Assembly: GCA_937944885.1 (NCBI GenBank)
Contig: CALFBB010000052.1
Location: forward strand, 1 to 55,511
From: an uncultured cyanobacterium
GTDB taxonomy: Bacteria > Cyanobacteriota > Cyanobacteriia > Thermostichales > Thermostichaceae
Direction: 5' to 3'
DNA: 55,511 nt
The position numbers and the translations under genes are program-made. Below the pieces are notes generated by a model. It did no database searches. It saw only the letters and a program-made list of their open reading frames with translations, and was not told the DNA's origin. Of the stretch, positions 2,737 through 54,298 are shown piece after piece (the stretch's first letter is position 1; each line of letters starts with the position of its first letter).

Positions 2737-3996
2737 ATGGAGTTGGCAACCGGGATCCTGATCGGACTAGGAGTCGGGCTGCTGGGTGCTCTGCTCTTGC
2801 TCTGGCAAAGGCACCGTCGCTGGCAACGGGCACTACAACAGTTGGCCTCTCGGGTGGGCGGTCGGCTGCCGCTCCATTCTCCGGAAGCAACGCTCAACCT
2901 GCTGAGTCAACGGCTTCGCCAACAGCAACTCGACTGGGCTGCCCAAAACCAGCAACTGCAAGATTGGCAATACCTCAGTCAACACCTTCCTTGGGGATAT
3001 TTGCGGGTGGATGAGAACAACATTGTGCTGGAGTGCAACCCAGCTGCGCAGCGTCTTCTGCGTATCCACCAGTGGCAGCCGGGCATCAAGTTGCTGCTGG
3101 AATGGGTGCGTTCTTATGAATTGGATCAGATGATCGAGGCCACCCGCCGGCAAGCAGCCGATGAGCCTCGCCAAAGTTGTGAATGGATTTTTTACCCTTC
3201 CGGCGGGGATGGCAAACCAACCCCGTTGCGCGCTTGGGGGCTGCCGTTACCTCAGTCCCATGTAGCTATTTTTCTGGAGGATCGGCTGGAAGCAAAAATG
3301 CTGGCCCAACAACGGGATCGCTGGGCTTCCGATGTAGCCCATGAGCTGAAAACCCCTCTCACCTCGATTCGCTTACTGGCGGAAACCCTACACAGCCGCG
3401 TGGATGCGGCGCAGGCAGTTTGGGTGGAACGCCTGCTCAATGAAACGCTACGCCTCAGTAACTTGGTGCAAGATCTGCTGGAACTGAGTGCCCTCAACTT
3501 GGGGGCGGGATCCCGGTTGCAACCGCGTTGGGTGGATCTGGCCGCTTTGGTTCAAGAAGCCTGGCAAAGTTTGGAACCTCAAGCCAACCCTCGTCAGCAG
3601 GACCTGCATCTAACCGGAAGCAAACAAGCCCACCTCTGGGGCGATGAACAGCGCTTGTATCGGCTGATTTTGAACCTGCTGGACAATGCCGTTAAGTACA
3701 GCAACCCTGGATCCCCGGTGCATGTGGTTTTGGCGGAGGAAGGATCCAAACTGAGGCTAGAGGTGTACGATCACGGGCCAGGGTTGCCTCCTGATCAGTT
3801 TGAGTTGGTGTTTCAACCCTTCTATCGTACCGATGCCGCACGGACCCGCAGCAAGGGCGGCACCGGCCTAGGGCTGGCCATTGTGAAACAAATTGTCGAG
3901 GTACATGGGGGCACCATCCAACTCTGTAATCATCCCCAAACCGGTGGGCTGTGGGTGCAGGTGGAACTGCCGCAAAAGCGACTGGATCCTCTGTGA
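2737..3996 (+). CDS. sphS: Sensor histidine kinase, SphS/PhoR type
   Basis: The 419-residue protein has one amino-terminal membrane helix (residues 4-24), a PAS-like region (about 85-180, with LRVDENNIVLECNPAA), then the phosphoacceptor box SDVAHELKTPLTSIRLL near 200 and a carboxy HATPase domain with an N-box (NLLDNAVKYS) and GTGLGLAIV. This layout, together with GLPLPQSHVAIFLEDR ahead of the kinase core, matches cyanobacterial SphS, the phosphate-starvation sensor that phosphorylates SphR. Its likely partner is about 50 kb away at 53269 rather than adjacent. Kinase function is certain by motif; the phosphate role is inferred from family resemblance. Confidence 0.78.
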   Translation: MELATGILIGLGVGLLGALLLLWQRHRRWQRALQQLASRVGGRLPLHSPEATLNLLSQRLRQQQLDWAAQNQQLQDWQYLSQHLPWGYLRVDENNIVLECNPAAQRLLRIHQWQPGIKLLLEWVRSYELDQMIEATRRQAADEPRQSCEWIFYPSGGDGKPTPLRAWGLPLPQSHVAIFLEDRLEAKMLAQQRDRWASDVAHELKTPLTSIRLLAETLHSRVDAAQAVWVERLLNETLRLSNLVQDLLELSALNLGAGSRLQPRWVDLAALVQEAWQSLEPQANPRQQDLHLTGSKQAHLWGDEQRLYRLILNLLDNAVKYSNPGSPVHVVLAEEGSKLRLEVYDHGPGLPPDQFELVFQPFYRTDAARTRSKGGTGLGLAIVKQIVEVHGGTIQLCNHPQTGGLWVQVELPQKRLDPL

Positions 3997-21289: not shown

Positions 21290-22231
21290 CTACTGGGTCG
21301 CTGGCTGGGCCGTTTCAGCTGAAAGGGGAGTCAGAAGCATTTGATAAAGTTGCTGCTGCTGTTGAGGGGAGAGGTATTGCAGCCGGAGGAGTGGCCAATC
21401 CTGTAAAGTCAAAGCCTGCTGAGCTTGTAAAACCTCTTTTAGGTTCGAGTCAGGATCTAAGTACTCCTGCAAAACCTGTAAATCGTGGAAACGACCCAGT
21501 TGATCCTGTAGGGTTCTTAGGGCTTGCAGCCATTCTTGTACCCCTTTGCCGTAGCAATCTGCAAAGAACTCTAGCTGATAGCGCAGCTGTTTGCCGGCTT
21601 TGCGTAGCTCATGCAATTGCTTGGTTTCAGATCTCGTGTGGGGAACCGACGGGATCCGCCAGCCCGGTTGCAGTAGCCATTTGGCCAACAGTGGGGTGAG
21701 TAAATGAGGCAAACTTTCTTGCAGAGGAAGTTGGGCTTGCGGAGTGTAGCGGGGATGAGCGAGCCACTCTTCACAGGCGGCTTGCAACTTGAGAAAGGCA
21801 GGGTCTTGCAAAATCTGATGGGAGCGGTCTTCGGCTTTGGCCCGACGACGGGATAGGTTTGCCCTCAGCTGTTGCCATTCCACTTGCTGCGTTGGCCGGA
21901 TCCCCTCCCAGCAGGGTTCTTGGAGGATCTCCAGCAGTACATCCAAATCCCGTTGCTGACCGAGGGCGCTAGCTAGCTTCTGGATCCGCTTGAAGGGTTT
22001 GGGTAGCTTCACAGATCCCTGAAAAACCTGCACCCAAGTACTCATGCGTCGTAGGGTCACCCGAATTTGATGGAGGGACTCGACCGCCTCTTCATGATGG
22101 CCCAGTACCCGGGCCACGTGCTTTTGCAGCCGTTGCCACTGCCGCTTTAAAAGGCAGTGGGCTTCTGAGGCCAAAGTGGGTGCCGCTGAGGATGAAAGTA
22201 AGATCCTCTGCTCAGTAATAATTGGAGTCAC
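21290..22231 (-). CDS. CHAD domain protein
   Basis: The 313-residue helical protein has the CHAD signature: paired helices with conserved His and basic residues, LHQIRVTLRRM near 55, QRDLDVLLEIL near 95, LHELRKAGKQLRYQLEFF near 210 and GRFHDLQVLQEYL near 248. CHAD domains form a basic channel and are known to bind inorganic polyphosphate; they often occur with CYTH triphosphatases, but here the domain stands alone and no CYTH gene is in the window. A PHO-box-like direct repeat lies about 70-90 bases upstream, implying induction on phosphate starvation. Start ATG 22231 is the longest. Confidence 0.85.
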   Translation of the reverse strand: MTPIITEQRILLSSSAAPTLASEAHCLLKRQWQRLQKHVARVLGHHEEAVESLHQIRVTLRRMSTWVQVFQGSVKLPKPFKRIQKLASALGQQRDLDVLLEILQEPCWEGIRPTQQVEWQQLRANLSRRRAKAEDRSHQILQDPAFLKLQAACEEWLAHPRYTPQAQLPLQESLPHLLTPLLAKWLLQPGWRIPSVPHTRSETKQLHELRKAGKQLRYQLEFFADCYGKGVQEWLQALRTLQDQLGRFHDLQVLQEYLDPDSNLKEVLQAQQALTLQDWPLLRLQYLSPQQQQQLYQMLLTPLSAETAQPATQ

Positions 22232-22262
22232 CGCCGGAATGTCCTTGTCAACCCATCACTTG

Positions 22263-22319
22263 CTTAACCTTAGGGCTGCTCCACCCAAGGGCTTTTATAT
22301 CTTAACCCAAGCTTAACCT
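22263..22319. promoter_or_regulatory. PHO-box-like repeats upstream of the CHAD gene
   Basis: CTTAACCC (22301-22308) and CTTAACCT (22312-22319) are eight-base units separated by exactly three bases, the arrangement of the cyanobacterial PHO box bound by SphR. A third perfect CTTAACCT lies at 22263-22270. They occupy the gap between tmk and the CHAD gene. An AT-rich -10-like stretch (TATAAA on the minus strand, about 22295-22300) directly abuts the pair, closer than usual. Confidence 0.65.
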
Positions 22320-22365
22320 TGAGCCCAAGGGATGAGTAAGCGGAGCAGCGACCAAGACAGATGGC

Positions 22366-23034
22366 TCAGCCCTGGGCTAGGCGGCTCTTAACCACCGCCC
22401 AAATGCGCTCTGCTACCTCTTGAGGGGATCCCTGGGCATCGATGCGGACAATGCGCTGCGGTTCTGCGGCTGCCAGCTCTTGAAAACCCTGGTACAGCCG
22501 CTGGTGGAAAGACAGGTGGGCTTGCTCCATGCGGTCTCCAGGGAGAGAGGCTGGTCCAGCGGGGGAGGTGGTTCGGGAGCAGGCTCGCTTTAGGCCCAGT
22601 TGTGGGGGCAAATCCAGCCAAAGGGTGAGGTGGGGTTGCAAGTTGCCCGTGGCCAGTTGGTTCACCTGCCGAATCAGATTCAAGTCAAGGCCGCGCCCAT
22701 AGCCCTGATAGGCCAGGGTGGAGTCGGTGAAGCGGTCACAAACCACCACCTGCCCTGCCGCTAAAGCGGGATGAATCCGGGTTTGCACATGCTCCGCCCG
22801 ATCCGCTGCATACAGCAGCAACTCTGCCAGTGGCTCAATGGGATCCCCGTGTAGCAGCAGCGCTCGCAATTTTTGCCCGAGGACAGTCCCTCCCGGCTCA
22901 CGGGTGCACAGACAGGTGTATCCCTCCTTTTGCAGCCGTCCTGCCAAAAGGGCTTGTTGCGTGGTTTTGCCCACCCCTTCTCCCCCTTCCAGGGTGATGA
23001 ACAGGCCAGATCGGAGCTGCACGGAGGGGTTCAA
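22366..23034 (-). CDS. tmk: Thymidylate kinase
   Basis: The 222-residue protein shows the P-loop GGEGVGKTTQ at 16-25, TREPGGT near 46, the DRFTDSTLAYQGYGRG lid/base motif near 98 and a carboxy helix typical of dTMP kinase. It phosphorylates dTMP to dTDP for DNA synthesis. The start is probably TTG 23034, overlapping the stop of the upstream gene by four bases; a GTG five codons later is possible. The overlap implies translational coupling with the Arg/Ser-repeat protein. A run of Ser/Pro before residue 160 is an insertion compared with the shortest relatives. Confidence 0.93.
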   Translation of the reverse strand: MNPSVQLRSGLFITLEGGEGVGKTTQQALLAGRLQKEGYTCLCTREPGGTVLGQKLRALLLHGDPIEPLAELLLYAADRAEHVQTRIHPALAAGQVVVCDRFTDSTLAYQGYGRGLDLNLIRQVNQLATGNLQPHLTLWLDLPPQLGLKRACSRTTSPAGPASLPGDRMEQAHLSFHQRLYQGFQELAAAEPQRIVRIDAQGSPQEVAERIWAVVKSRLAQG

Positions 23035-39641: not shown

Positions 39642-39663
39642 GGCCCCCGTAGGGGCCTTTTTT
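39642..39663 (+). terminator. Intrinsic terminator of atpD
   Basis: GGCCCC (39642-39647) and GGGGCC (39652-39657) pair over a CGTA loop, followed by six T. It ends at the stop of the convergent regulator gene. Confidence 0.88.
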
Positions 39664-40378
39664 ATTGGCTTTCCGCGGTTGGCCCAAAGCGATACCCCTT
39701 GCCATACACGGCATGGATCAGCTCTGGTGAACCGGACAGCCGTAGACGACGACGCAACAGCCGTACTTGGGCAGCCAAAACATTGCTGCTAGGGGGATCC
39801 TCTCCTGCCCACACCTGTTCATAAATCTGGTCATGGGTGAGCAACTGTCCGGGATGGGACATGAAATACTCCAGCAGACGAAACTCTTTTTGGGAGAGGT
39901 TAATCATCCGTCCCTGTCGATAGGCAACCTGGTTCTCCCTATCCAGCTGCAGATCTGCAATCTGCAAGCGTGGGATCCCTTCTCCTGAGTTGGTAGCCCG
40001 CCGTAGCAAAGCCCGTACCCGCGCCAACAGCTCCCGCAACTCAAAGGGTTTCACCAAGTAGTCATCTGCCCCTGCATCCAGTCCTTCTACTCGGTCATCC
40101 AGAGTATCTTTGGCGGTGAGAAACAAAATCGGCGTGCTGCGATCCACCTGTCGCACCTGCCGACAAAGGGAGAGACCTGATGAGCCCGGTAACATCCAAT
40201 CCAGGATCAACAGATCGTAGGGTGCAGCTGTTGTACGGGTTTGGGTTGAGGACTGCAGCAGTTGCCAAGCTTGCCCACCGTCATAGGCCACATTCACCCT
40301 GTAGCCCTCGCGGGCCAGCTGCTGCGCCAGAGAATCCGCCAGTTCTACCTCGTCATCCACCACCAGAATCCGCATCAT
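39662..40378 (-). CDS. OmpR-family response regulator (RppA/NrsR-like)
   Basis: A 238-residue regulator: receiver domain with acidic DDE at 8-10, phospho-accepting Asp in LLILDWMLPG and Lys in DDYLVKPFEL, then a winged helix domain (NLSQKEFRLLEYFMSHPG, ending YGKGYRFG). It resembles the RppA/NrsR subgroup of cyanobacterial regulators, linked to redox or metal signals, but this is a tentative match. No kinase gene is adjacent. Its start overlaps the end of rsmI by 26 bases, so the two are read together. Two Met codons stand at the start; spacing to GGAAG fits the second slightly better. Confidence 0.88.
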   Translation of the reverse strand: MMRILVVDDEVELADSLAQQLAREGYRVNVAYDGGQAWQLLQSSTQTRTTAAPYDLLILDWMLPGSSGLSLCRQVRQVDRSTPILFLTAKDTLDDRVEGLDAGADDYLVKPFELRELLARVRALLRRATNSGEGIPRLQIADLQLDRENQVAYRQGRMINLSQKEFRLLEYFMSHPGQLLTHDQIYEQVWAGEDPPSSNVLAAQVRLLRRRLRLSGSPELIHAVYGKGYRFGPTAESQ

Positions 40379-51925: not shown

Positions 51926-53284
51926 ATGAGCGAAACCCTACAGACAGAATGGCTGTTGCATTCTTTCTACCAATGGTTGCCCTTCCCCGCCGAATGGCTG
52001 CCGGAAAGCACTTATTGGGTCGGGGGATCCCTACGGGATGCTTGTTTGCAGCAGATGGGGATACCCGGTCAAGCTCCGAGAGCAGGTGGGGCAGATGAGT
52101 CCATTGACCTGGACCTGCTGCTGGGTGGTGAGGTGCATCAGCCTGTGGAGTGGGCAGCAGCAGTGGCGCGGCGGTTGAGGGCAGGATTTGTGGTGCTGGA
52201 TGCAGAACGACAAATTGCCCGCATTGTGTTGCCCAAAGTAACTCTAGATATAGCCCAGCAGATGGGTTCCACCCCAGAATGCGATCTGTGGCAGCGGGAT
52301 TTCACCTGTAACGCATTGGCCTTACATCTGCAAACCGGCCAGCTTTTGGATCCCACAGGTGGCCAGCTGGACATTCGCCGCCGCCAAATGCGTATGGTGC
52401 GCCCAGAAAACCTCAGTGCCGATCCGCTGCGGCTGTTGCGGGCCTACCGACAGGGGGCTCAACTGGGGTTTGAGCTGGAGACAGAAACCCAAAGGGCCAT
52501 TCAGGCGCGGGCCGATCTGCTGGCAGCAGTGGCAGGAGAACGGGTGCGCACAGAAGTGGTAGCACTGCTGGAGGCAGGAAGCCGCGGTTTGGATTACCTA
52601 CAGGCGGCAGTGGCGGCAGGGTTGCTGAGGGATTGGTTACCCCGCTTGCAGCTTCAAAAGGCAGGGTTTTCCCAAGCTGAGAGGGTGTGGCAGTGGGCCC
52701 ATCCCTGGCAGCAGCAATACCCCCGCACGCTAGCGGAGCTGGCTCAACCCTTAGCGGATCGGCGCTCCGGCCTGTTGACGGTGGTGCTGGCGGCCCTGTT
52801 ATGGGATCCCACTCAGGCTGCGGCTCCTCAGGCAGAGGCAGTGGCCCAAGATCTAGAAAGATTGCGCTTTAGCCGGGCAGAATTGCGAATGGTGCAGAAG
52901 CTGTATCACCTTTTGCCACAGCTACAGGAGTTGCTGCTGAACTCCCCCACCCCTGTGCAGCAGTGGCGGCTCTACCAACAGGCGGGATCCCTGTTTGGCG
53001 GCTTGGCCCTCTTGGCGGTAGCCAGTGGCGCTGATGGAAAAAAACTAGAGCCTTGGCTGAGGCGCTACGAAGACCTTGCGGATCCCCTGGCCCATCTGGT
53101 TCCTCTGCTGGATGGCAAGGATCTGCTGCACAGTTTGGGAGCCAAGCCCGGCCCCTGGGTAGGGCAGCTCCTACAAGCTCTGCAGGAGGCACAGGTTTGT
53201 AACCAGATTCAAAGCCGTGCTGAGGCTCTGGCCTTCGCCCACCGCTGGCATGAACAGGAGCAGCAAAATCAACCGAAGCGATAA
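51926..53284 (+). CDS. CCA-adding-type tRNA nucleotidyltransferase/poly(A) polymerase family
   Basis: The 452-residue protein is a class II nucleotidyltransferase: VGGSLRDACL near 31, the metal-binding ESIDLDLLLG near 56, RDFTCNALAL near 117, then ENLSADPLRLLRAYRQGAQL and a helical carboxy half. These add CCA, or only CC or A, to tRNA ends; several cyanobacteria divide the job between two enzymes, so the exact reaction is open. No HD domain is seen. The start ATG 51926, with GAGGGG upstream, was chosen over a longer frame that overlaps hemH. Its end overlaps the convergent regulator by 16 bases. Confidence 0.87.
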   Translation: MSETLQTEWLLHSFYQWLPFPAEWLPESTYWVGGSLRDACLQQMGIPGQAPRAGGADESIDLDLLLGGEVHQPVEWAAAVARRLRAGFVVLDAERQIARIVLPKVTLDIAQQMGSTPECDLWQRDFTCNALALHLQTGQLLDPTGGQLDIRRRQMRMVRPENLSADPLRLLRAYRQGAQLGFELETETQRAIQARADLLAAVAGERVRTEVVALLEAGSRGLDYLQAAVAAGLLRDWLPRLQLQKAGFSQAERVWQWAHPWQQQYPRTLAELAQPLADRRSGLLTVVLAALLWDPTQAAAPQAEAVAQDLERLRFSRAELRMVQKLYHLLPQLQELLLNSPTPVQQWRLYQQAGSLFGGLALLAVASGADGKKLEPWLRRYEDLADPLAHLVPLLDGKDLLHSLGAKPGPWVGQLLQALQEAQVCNQIQSRAEALAFAHRWHEQEQQNQPKR

Positions 53285-54015
53285 CCAAAACCCCGTACGG
53301 TTACCAGATACTCAGGGTTACTGGGATCCAGCTCCAGCTTCTCCCGTAGCCAGCGAATGTGGACATCCACCGTTTTACTATCCCCCATAAAGTCGGATCC
53401 CCAAACCCGCTCTAGCAACTGCTCTCGCGTCCAAACGCGGCGTGGATTACCCATGAACAATTCCAGCAGACGAAATTCCTTAGGGGAGAAATTCACCTCA
53501 ATGCCCCGCACCAATACCCGGCACTCCTGGGTAAACAGGCACAGATCCCCATGGCGCAGCACGGTTGCATCACTGGTCTGAGAGTGCTGGTAGCGTCGCA
53601 ATACAGAGCGGCAGCGGGCAATTAACTCCCGCATTCCAAAGGGCTTGGTTAGGTAATCATCAGCCCCCAGTTCCAAACCTACCACCCGGTCGGTTTCACT
53701 ACTCTTGGCCGTCAACATCAAAATTGGGATGGTATTGCCCTCCCGTCGCAACAGGCGGCATAAATCCAACCCGTTCAGGCTGGGCAGCATCAAATCGAGA
53801 ATCAACAAGTCCAGCCGCTCAGAGGTGTGCACCAGCTCCAGGGCTTGACGGCCATCAGCGGCCTGTAAAACAGAATACCCTTGTTCCTCTAAAGCGAGAG
53901 TAATCGTTTCTCGTATAGCGTCTTCATCGTCCACCACCAGGAGGGTTTCTGAGAGAGGAGAACCCTCCTTCACTTGGGAAAGTAGACTGGTAGGCGTCGG
54001 AAGGGTCGCTTGCAT
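53269..54015 (-). CDS. sphR: OmpR/PhoB-family response regulator, SphR-like
   Basis: The 248-residue regulator has a receiver domain (LLVVDDEDAIRETI, phospho-Asp in LLILDLMLPSLNGLDLCRLL, Lys in DDYLTKPFGMRELIARC) and a winged helix domain (FSPKEFRLLELFMGNPRRVW, DSKTVDVHIRWLREKLELD, RGFGYRFG). The wording resembles cyanobacterial SphR, which binds PHO boxes under phosphate limitation. ATG 54015 with GAGG upstream is used; the frame extends to 54249, but the extra part is not protein-like. Its likely kinase is the SphS-like protein at 2737. A PHO-box-like target lies at 22263-22319. Confidence 0.78.
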   Translation of the reverse strand: MQATLPTPTSLLSQVKEGSPLSETLLVVDDEDAIRETITLALEEQGYSVLQAADGRQALELVHTSERLDLLILDLMLPSLNGLDLCRLLRREGNTIPILMLTAKSSETDRVVGLELGADDYLTKPFGMRELIARCRSVLRRYQHSQTSDATVLRHGDLCLFTQECRVLVRGIEVNFSPKEFRLLELFMGNPRRVWTREQLLERVWGSDFMGDSKTVDVHIRWLREKLELDPSNPEYLVTVRGFGYRFG

Positions 54016-54298
54016 AATCAGCCTCACAGGGAAAGAAGTGCATACGCCACCACCTTCAACAGCAGCCCCCAGATAGGATATCAAACTTCCACAAGAGCAA
54101 GGTTGGGGGAACAAGCGGTAAAAGGGTGGGCAACTTTTCCCCTGACTGCATTTATGGCTAGAGAGATTCCAGCTGCCTCGGCCTGCCACAAATAGGGGAT
54201 AGCCCTTTAGCAATGATTTAAGATGATCTAGGATGAGGATAGACGTCACTGCTTTTCAACTCACCGGTCCCCTCAACACTGTTTGACACATTTTGCCC

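Follow-up and report, generated by a model that had tools for sequence, protein, structure and literature searches.

Reversed Pho-box pair at the promoter of a cyanobacterial CHAD gene, a predicted SphR operator

The CHAD gene, its upstream repeats and the regulators of the window

The window, a stretch of 55,511 nucleotides, corresponds to contig 52 of a cyanobacterial genome of 2.8 Mb. It carries at 21290..22231 on the minus strand a gene for a CHAD-domain protein of 313 aa with a GTG start, a predicted polyphosphate-binding phosin. The CHAD domain (PF05235) covers most of the protein (residues 28-258, E 3e-48, Pfam), relatives with solved structures are present in the PDB (6qv5, 3e0s, 6qv7), and the residues H54, R57, R61, R62, R94, R130, H207, R210, K211, K214 and R217 were invariant among 16 sequences. 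Judged from its sequence, the protein is a normal member of the family, and by analogy it would bind polyphosphate. PF05235 and conserved His, Arg and Lys residues are shared with the CHAD phosins of Tumlirsch and Jendrossek 2017 and Lorenzo-Orts 2019, as far as these are cited in PMC8003754; unlike those, the protein described here is a stand-alone cyanobacterial protein with a predicted phosin function.

An intergenic gap of 134 bp (22232-22365) separates the CHAD gene from the thymidylate kinase gene tmk (22366..23034, PF02223, E 3e-48), which is also located on the minus strand. In this gap the initial annotation had reported repeats with an 11-base periodicity, and the pair was confirmed: the units start at 22301 and 22312, with an exact 11-base period and a 3-bp linker. 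On the CHAD coding strand, the promoter-distal unit CTTAACCT (22312..22319, plus strand) reads AGGTTAAG and the inner unit CTTAACCC (22301..22308, plus strand) reads GGGTTAAG. A third repeat had been counted as well. This CTTAACCT copy is real (22263..22270, plus strand) and partly conserved, but it lies in the CHAD leader, 38 bp from the pair and thus outside the 11-base register; it is probably accessory or a chance occurrence. Three or more tandem units were not found at the CHAD box: two units are in register, and the three-unit score of 10-11 bits was below the two-unit score.

Su et al. 2007 (PMC1906773) list Pho boxes in their Table 1. With a matrix derived from these, the pair at 22301-22319 scored 19.9 bits and was the sole site of at least 15.5 bits on either strand of the window. 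The genome-wide regulon scan consisted of pattern searches. The strict core TTAACC-N5-TTAACC (GGTTAAN5GGTTAA on the opposite strand) occurred twice in the 2.8-Mb genome, once in the CHAD promoter and once about 160 bp upstream of pstS. Single CTTAACC words were not enriched in the window (8 observed, 5.6 expected), thus it is the spaced pair that stands out. Pair versions with one mismatch were no more frequent in the window's own genome than the backward-pattern control; therefore an exact or matrix-scored pair is required, and a large regulon proposed from one-mismatch counts was rejected.

The initial annotation had also placed an SphS-like and an SphR-like gene in the window, and candidates for both were identified. 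The SphR candidate, a response regulator of the PhoB/RegX3 type, is encoded at 53269..54249 on the minus strand (conserved part 53269-53946). Its best NCBIfam model was PhoB (TIGR02154) with 245 bits, below the cut-off of 296, a single close ortholog was present in 12 of 12 genomes tested, and in the PDB mycobacterial RegX3 was closest, while the DNA-binding domain also matched E. coli PhoB. The SphS candidate, a histidine kinase of the PnpS/PhoR type, is located at 2737..3996 on the plus strand; its homologs, with 42-47 % identity, adjoin the SphR ortholog in three other genomes (G023, G027, G031). Since the NCBIfam scores are below the equivalog cut-offs, the assignment is based on orthology and on adjacency in other genomes, and the two genes are here taken as the putative SphS-SphR pair. 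Separate operons for sphS and sphR are mentioned by Su et al. (PMC1906773) for the Aprime and Bprime strains. An OmpR-type regulator at 39662-40378 was rejected as SphR, as it matched RppA above the equivalog cut-off (272 bits, cut-off 250).

Conservation and distribution of the box

All six congeneric genomes have the repeat upstream of their CHAD ortholog, as have members of several other families. A box-anchored alignment of 140 bp from the six congeners contained 14 invariant columns, and all of them were within the repeat pair, AAGGTTAA-N5-GGTTAA, with AAGGTTAA invariant in the distal and GGTTAA in the inner unit. The 12 core positions were 100 % identical, compared to 27-30 % in the flanks and 44 % in the 5-base spacer. 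A chance origin of the pair is rejected by this conservation together with the controls given below. The absence of enrichment of CTTAACC words and the ordinary frequency of one-mismatch pairs would fit a chance repeat without function, yet the pair is conserved in six genomes whose flanks have diverged and recurs across families, which makes such a repeat hardly credible.

The gene upstream of CHAD was tmk in five of the six congeners, and in the sixth (G002) an ATP-grasp/acetyltransferase or acyl-CoA synthetase-type gene, with the box retained. In more distant genomes the same-strand upstream gene was yrdC (G031) or, by eye, a superoxide dismutase gene similar to sodB (G036). As the upstream genes vary and share the strand of CHAD, the box is assigned to CHAD. 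The tmk gene was judged unlikely as target, because in relatives other genes take its place and the box is still found at CHAD. If the box served a divergent transcript, running antisense to tmk or a neighbour, its proximity to CHAD would be incidental; this would agree with the plus-strand polarity of the box, which is canonical for transcription away from CHAD, and divergent neighbours do occur in some relatives (G011, G027). The box is, however, retained next to same-strand, varying upstream genes in the genus and in examples from the families f25 and f27, it tracks CHAD when neighbours change, and inspection of the genus genomes by eye showed no -10-like sequence past the box on the plus strand; a role for such a transcript or for divergent neighbours is very unlikely. 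On the other side of the gene, a CRISPR-like array with the repeat GTTCCCCCTTCGGGGGGATCCCTAGAAATTGGAAAC ends directly at the CHAD 3' side in one relative (G003, contig 83; L019 1000-1500), and in several relatives (L017, L018, L063) CHAD is followed by a gene resembling an ABC-transporter binding protein (PotD-like by eye) that is absent from the window.

The published matrix was applied to positions -300 to 0 of CHAD upstream regions from 149 places in cyanobacterial genomes, and the scores were compared with those of Markov shuffles of the respective region. At p<0.01, 37 of the 149 regions had a reversed pair and 14 a forward pair, and some of the forward matches are cross-hits of the palindromic TTAA core; these counts are not independent, because genomes within a family are related. 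A repeat run with four additional genomes yielded 35 reversed and 15 forward pairs in 153 regions. The control interval from -600 to -300 presented 1 forward and 2 reversed pairs, the matrix read backwards 1 and 1, and the control spacings 9, 12 and 14 between 2 and 9 forward and between 3 and 10 reversed pairs. Thus about one quarter of the 149 regions had a reversed pair, compared to about 1 % in controls. The mean best-pair score in reversed orientation had its peak of 8.1 at spacing 11, with 5.2-6.6 at the other spacings. Matches were distributed over the families f1, f2, f5, f13, f16, f21, f24, f25 and f27, and third units were present in some relatives (G006, G031, G011 and the g31 group). 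In about three quarters of the sampled CHAD upstream regions the reversed box was undetectable.

The unit consensus built from CHAD sites only, reverse-complemented, was CTTAACCT and equalled the published SphR box base by base. Of the 32 exact matches of the pair in eight genomes, 11 precede pstS genes and 6 precede CHAD; the backward-pattern control had 13 matches. These observations bear on the question whether another regulator of the OmpR family, e.g., RpaA, RpaB or RppA, binds the 11-bp TTAA repeats without any link to phosphate. Related winged-helix regulators bind direct repeats, several are encoded per genome, loose searches gave 35-175 regulator candidates per genome, and RppA is encoded in the window. 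The agreement of the CHAD consensus with the SphR consensus position for position and the sharing of the exact pair mainly with pstS speak against such a regulator, which we consider improbable. The membership of CHAD in the phosphate regulon, as proposed in the initial annotation, is supported by the conservation of the repeat at orthologs and by the matrix shared with pst boxes, so that the sequence evidence makes a place in the SphS-SphR Pho regulon highly probable and the link well supported. The polyphosphate kinase gene ppk was without a Pho box in four genomes and was rejected as a co-regulated gene.

Polarity of the box and geometry of the CHAD promoter

Because CHAD is located on the minus strand, the Pho box is reversed relative to the gene: across the pair the CHAD coding strand reads AGGTTAAGcttGGGTTAAG, the reverse of the canonical orientation. 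At the pstS genes of this and of related genomes it is the coding strand that carries the TTAACC units, with a candidate -10 following them, and the boxes of pst and phosphonate-transport genes have a polarity opposite to the CHAD box in the same genomes. The box thus has its canonical orientation and position, ahead of the -10, at pstS but not at CHAD. The earlier reading had overlooked the polarity relative to CHAD, and the starvation-induced gene with a normal Pho box that it implied is not supported: the box is reversed, it lies across the probable core promoter, and two units are in register instead of three. The reservation made there, a -10-like sequence directly adjoining the repeats, became the key observation and points to repression; the inner unit doubles as a plausible -10.

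The candidate -10 TAAGAT (22299..22304, minus strand) consists of the inner Pho-box unit and two linker bases, and a weak candidate -35, TTGGGC (22323..22328, minus strand), is predicted with an 18-bp spacer just upstream of the box. An alternative predicted -10 is TATAAA at 22294-22299 on the minus strand. The -10 score, averaged with family weights over 36 regions with a reversed box, was highest at the inner unit and had no peak outside the box. The inner unit reads TAAGAT or TAAAAT in many of these genomes, and the best-scoring promoter uses the inner-unit hexamer in several regions, including the window (TTGGGC-18-TAAGAT). A search of the 36 regions for another conserved -10, located downstream of the box, found none. 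The inner unit was more -10-like than mirrored pst boxes, with p ~0.01 when related genomes are counted as independent. The overlap of box and -10 is in part built in, because the TTAA core alone resembles a -10 (TAAnnT); the -10-likeness of the inner unit is therefore modest evidence for an overlap with the promoter.

A second layout was observed in family f17: in all six genomes a double box in forward orientation starts 3-13 bp after TATAnT (TATAAT or TATACT) and ends before the start codon. An E. coli PhoB activating site lies about 10 bp upstream of the -10, as stated in PMC1906773. An activation from the f17 box position appears unlikely, and this layout presents stronger support for repression than the -10-likeness of the inner unit. 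The reversed overlap and the f17 layout suit a repressor better than an activator, hence repression is predicted. Alternatively, SphR may activate CHAD in starvation via the reversed box, if the polarity is irrelevant or the promoter is located downstream of the box. A positive Pho control of a CHAD gene has a precedent in Streptomyces (PMC8003754), in many genomes 50-130 bp lie between box and start codon, enough for a downstream promoter, and forward, activator-like boxes were present in G067 and G209. Activation is nevertheless doubtful, considering the lack of a conserved -10 downstream of the box in the 36 regions, the f17 box downstream of a near-perfect -10, the opposite orientation that the boxes of pst and phosphonate-transport genes have in the same genomes, and distances of only 35, 27 and 5 bp from the box start to the predicted CHAD start codon in G031, G027 and G008. 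The forward boxes of G067 (L201) and G209 (L217), two genomes of family f31, are located upstream of a TAGGAT -10. They suit activation, therefore the sign may differ between lineages, and CHAD is possibly activated instead of repressed in f31.

Predicted repression by SphR and comparison with known systems

The repeat, its spacing and conservation, the matrix shared with pst, the polarity and the place by the start codon or the -10 are properties of the DNA itself. Based on these, 22301-22319 is a predicted SphR operator, a two-unit Pho box reversed over the CHAD core promoter and acting in repression; we assign this reading a probability of roughly 0.6. That phosphorylated SphR represses CHAD in phosphate starvation, with the sign deduced from sequence, is likely. 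In the mechanism that we infer for the binding of SphR, for repression and for the CHAD protein's role, SphS would phosphorylate SphR when phosphate is short, and SphR~P would bind head-to-tail on the two units spaced by 11 bp. The bound SphR would cover the CHAD -35/-10 region and block the polymerase, in both layouts with repression as the outcome, while SphR in canonical orientation upstream of a -10 would activate pstS. With the return of phosphate, SphR would be dephosphorylated and CHAD made as polyphosphate is rebuilt, and the CHAD protein may then bind or organise polyphosphate granules. A wider generalization has about even odds: cyanobacterial SphR would be a dual regulator that activates uptake in one polarity and directly represses the CHAD granule gene when its box is placed backward or downstream over the promoter, in several families and with two geometries, so that CHAD is made only when phosphate is plentiful.

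The CHAD box resembles the known cyanobacterial SphR boxes (PMC1906773, PMC11126600) in its 8-bp CTTAACCT-type units, 3-bp linkers, 11-bp period and consensus, and SphS and SphR are encoded in the genome here as well. Unlike the published boxes, it is reversed, located over a predicted -10 and has two units in register versus three. SphR box arrays contain three repeats (Su 2007, PMC1906773; Synechocystis PhoB, PMC11126600), and in Synechocystis the mutation of any one of the three weakens binding (PMC11126600). The main texts of PMC1906773 and PMC11126600 do not mention CHAD. In Streptomyces lividans the CHAD gene pptA forms an operon with ppk and is activated by PhoP (PMC8003754). A CHAD (phosin) gene in the Pho regulon is common to both systems; in contrast to the positive PhoP control of ppk-pptA, CHAD stands alone here, ppk is without a box and repression is predicted. 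The sign at Streptomyces pptA is opposite to that predicted here. According to its title, cited in PMC4415409, Liu 1998 reported the repression of tagAB/tagDEF by Bacillus subtilis PhoP~P. This dual action of a phosphate response regulator, repressing at some targets and activating at others, is similar to what is proposed here for SphR; unlike in the CHAD case, the repressed targets are teichoic acid genes.

In the open-access literature we found no direct report on CHAD in a cyanobacterial Pho regulon, on direct repression by SphR or on reversed Pho boxes, and the papers searched contained no expression data on a phosphate- or SphR-dependent CHAD transcription. The analysis ties a predicted polyphosphate-granule protein directly to the cyanobacterial phosphate two-component system, and the sign of this control can be tested. 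Should repression be confirmed, SphR would be more than an activator, and a Pho box that is reversed or acts as a roadblock would present a simple rule for the distinction of up- and down-regulated Pho genes. It bears also on luxury phosphate uptake, in which starved and then refed cells build large polyphosphate stores.

Canonical arrays were observed in front of other genes of the genomes examined. A triple Pho-box array precedes a gene for a phosphonate-type ABC binding protein (PF12974, E 3e-66) in the window's own genome (G000, contig 6, 33045-33072; L109 ~1501-1530), with a similar array on contig 17 of G005. On contig 10 of G000 (74076-74102; L003 ~1501-1530) the units GTTAATCT-aca-GTTAATCT-aaa-GTTAAATT are located about 75 bp upstream of a small heat-shock (Hsp20) gene, which is possibly Pho-controlled. 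A canonical TTAACC pair was located upstream of a ribosome-hibernation gene (S30AE, LrtA/HPF-type) in at least one congener (G004, L073 1501-1517), with similar sites in G001 and G003.
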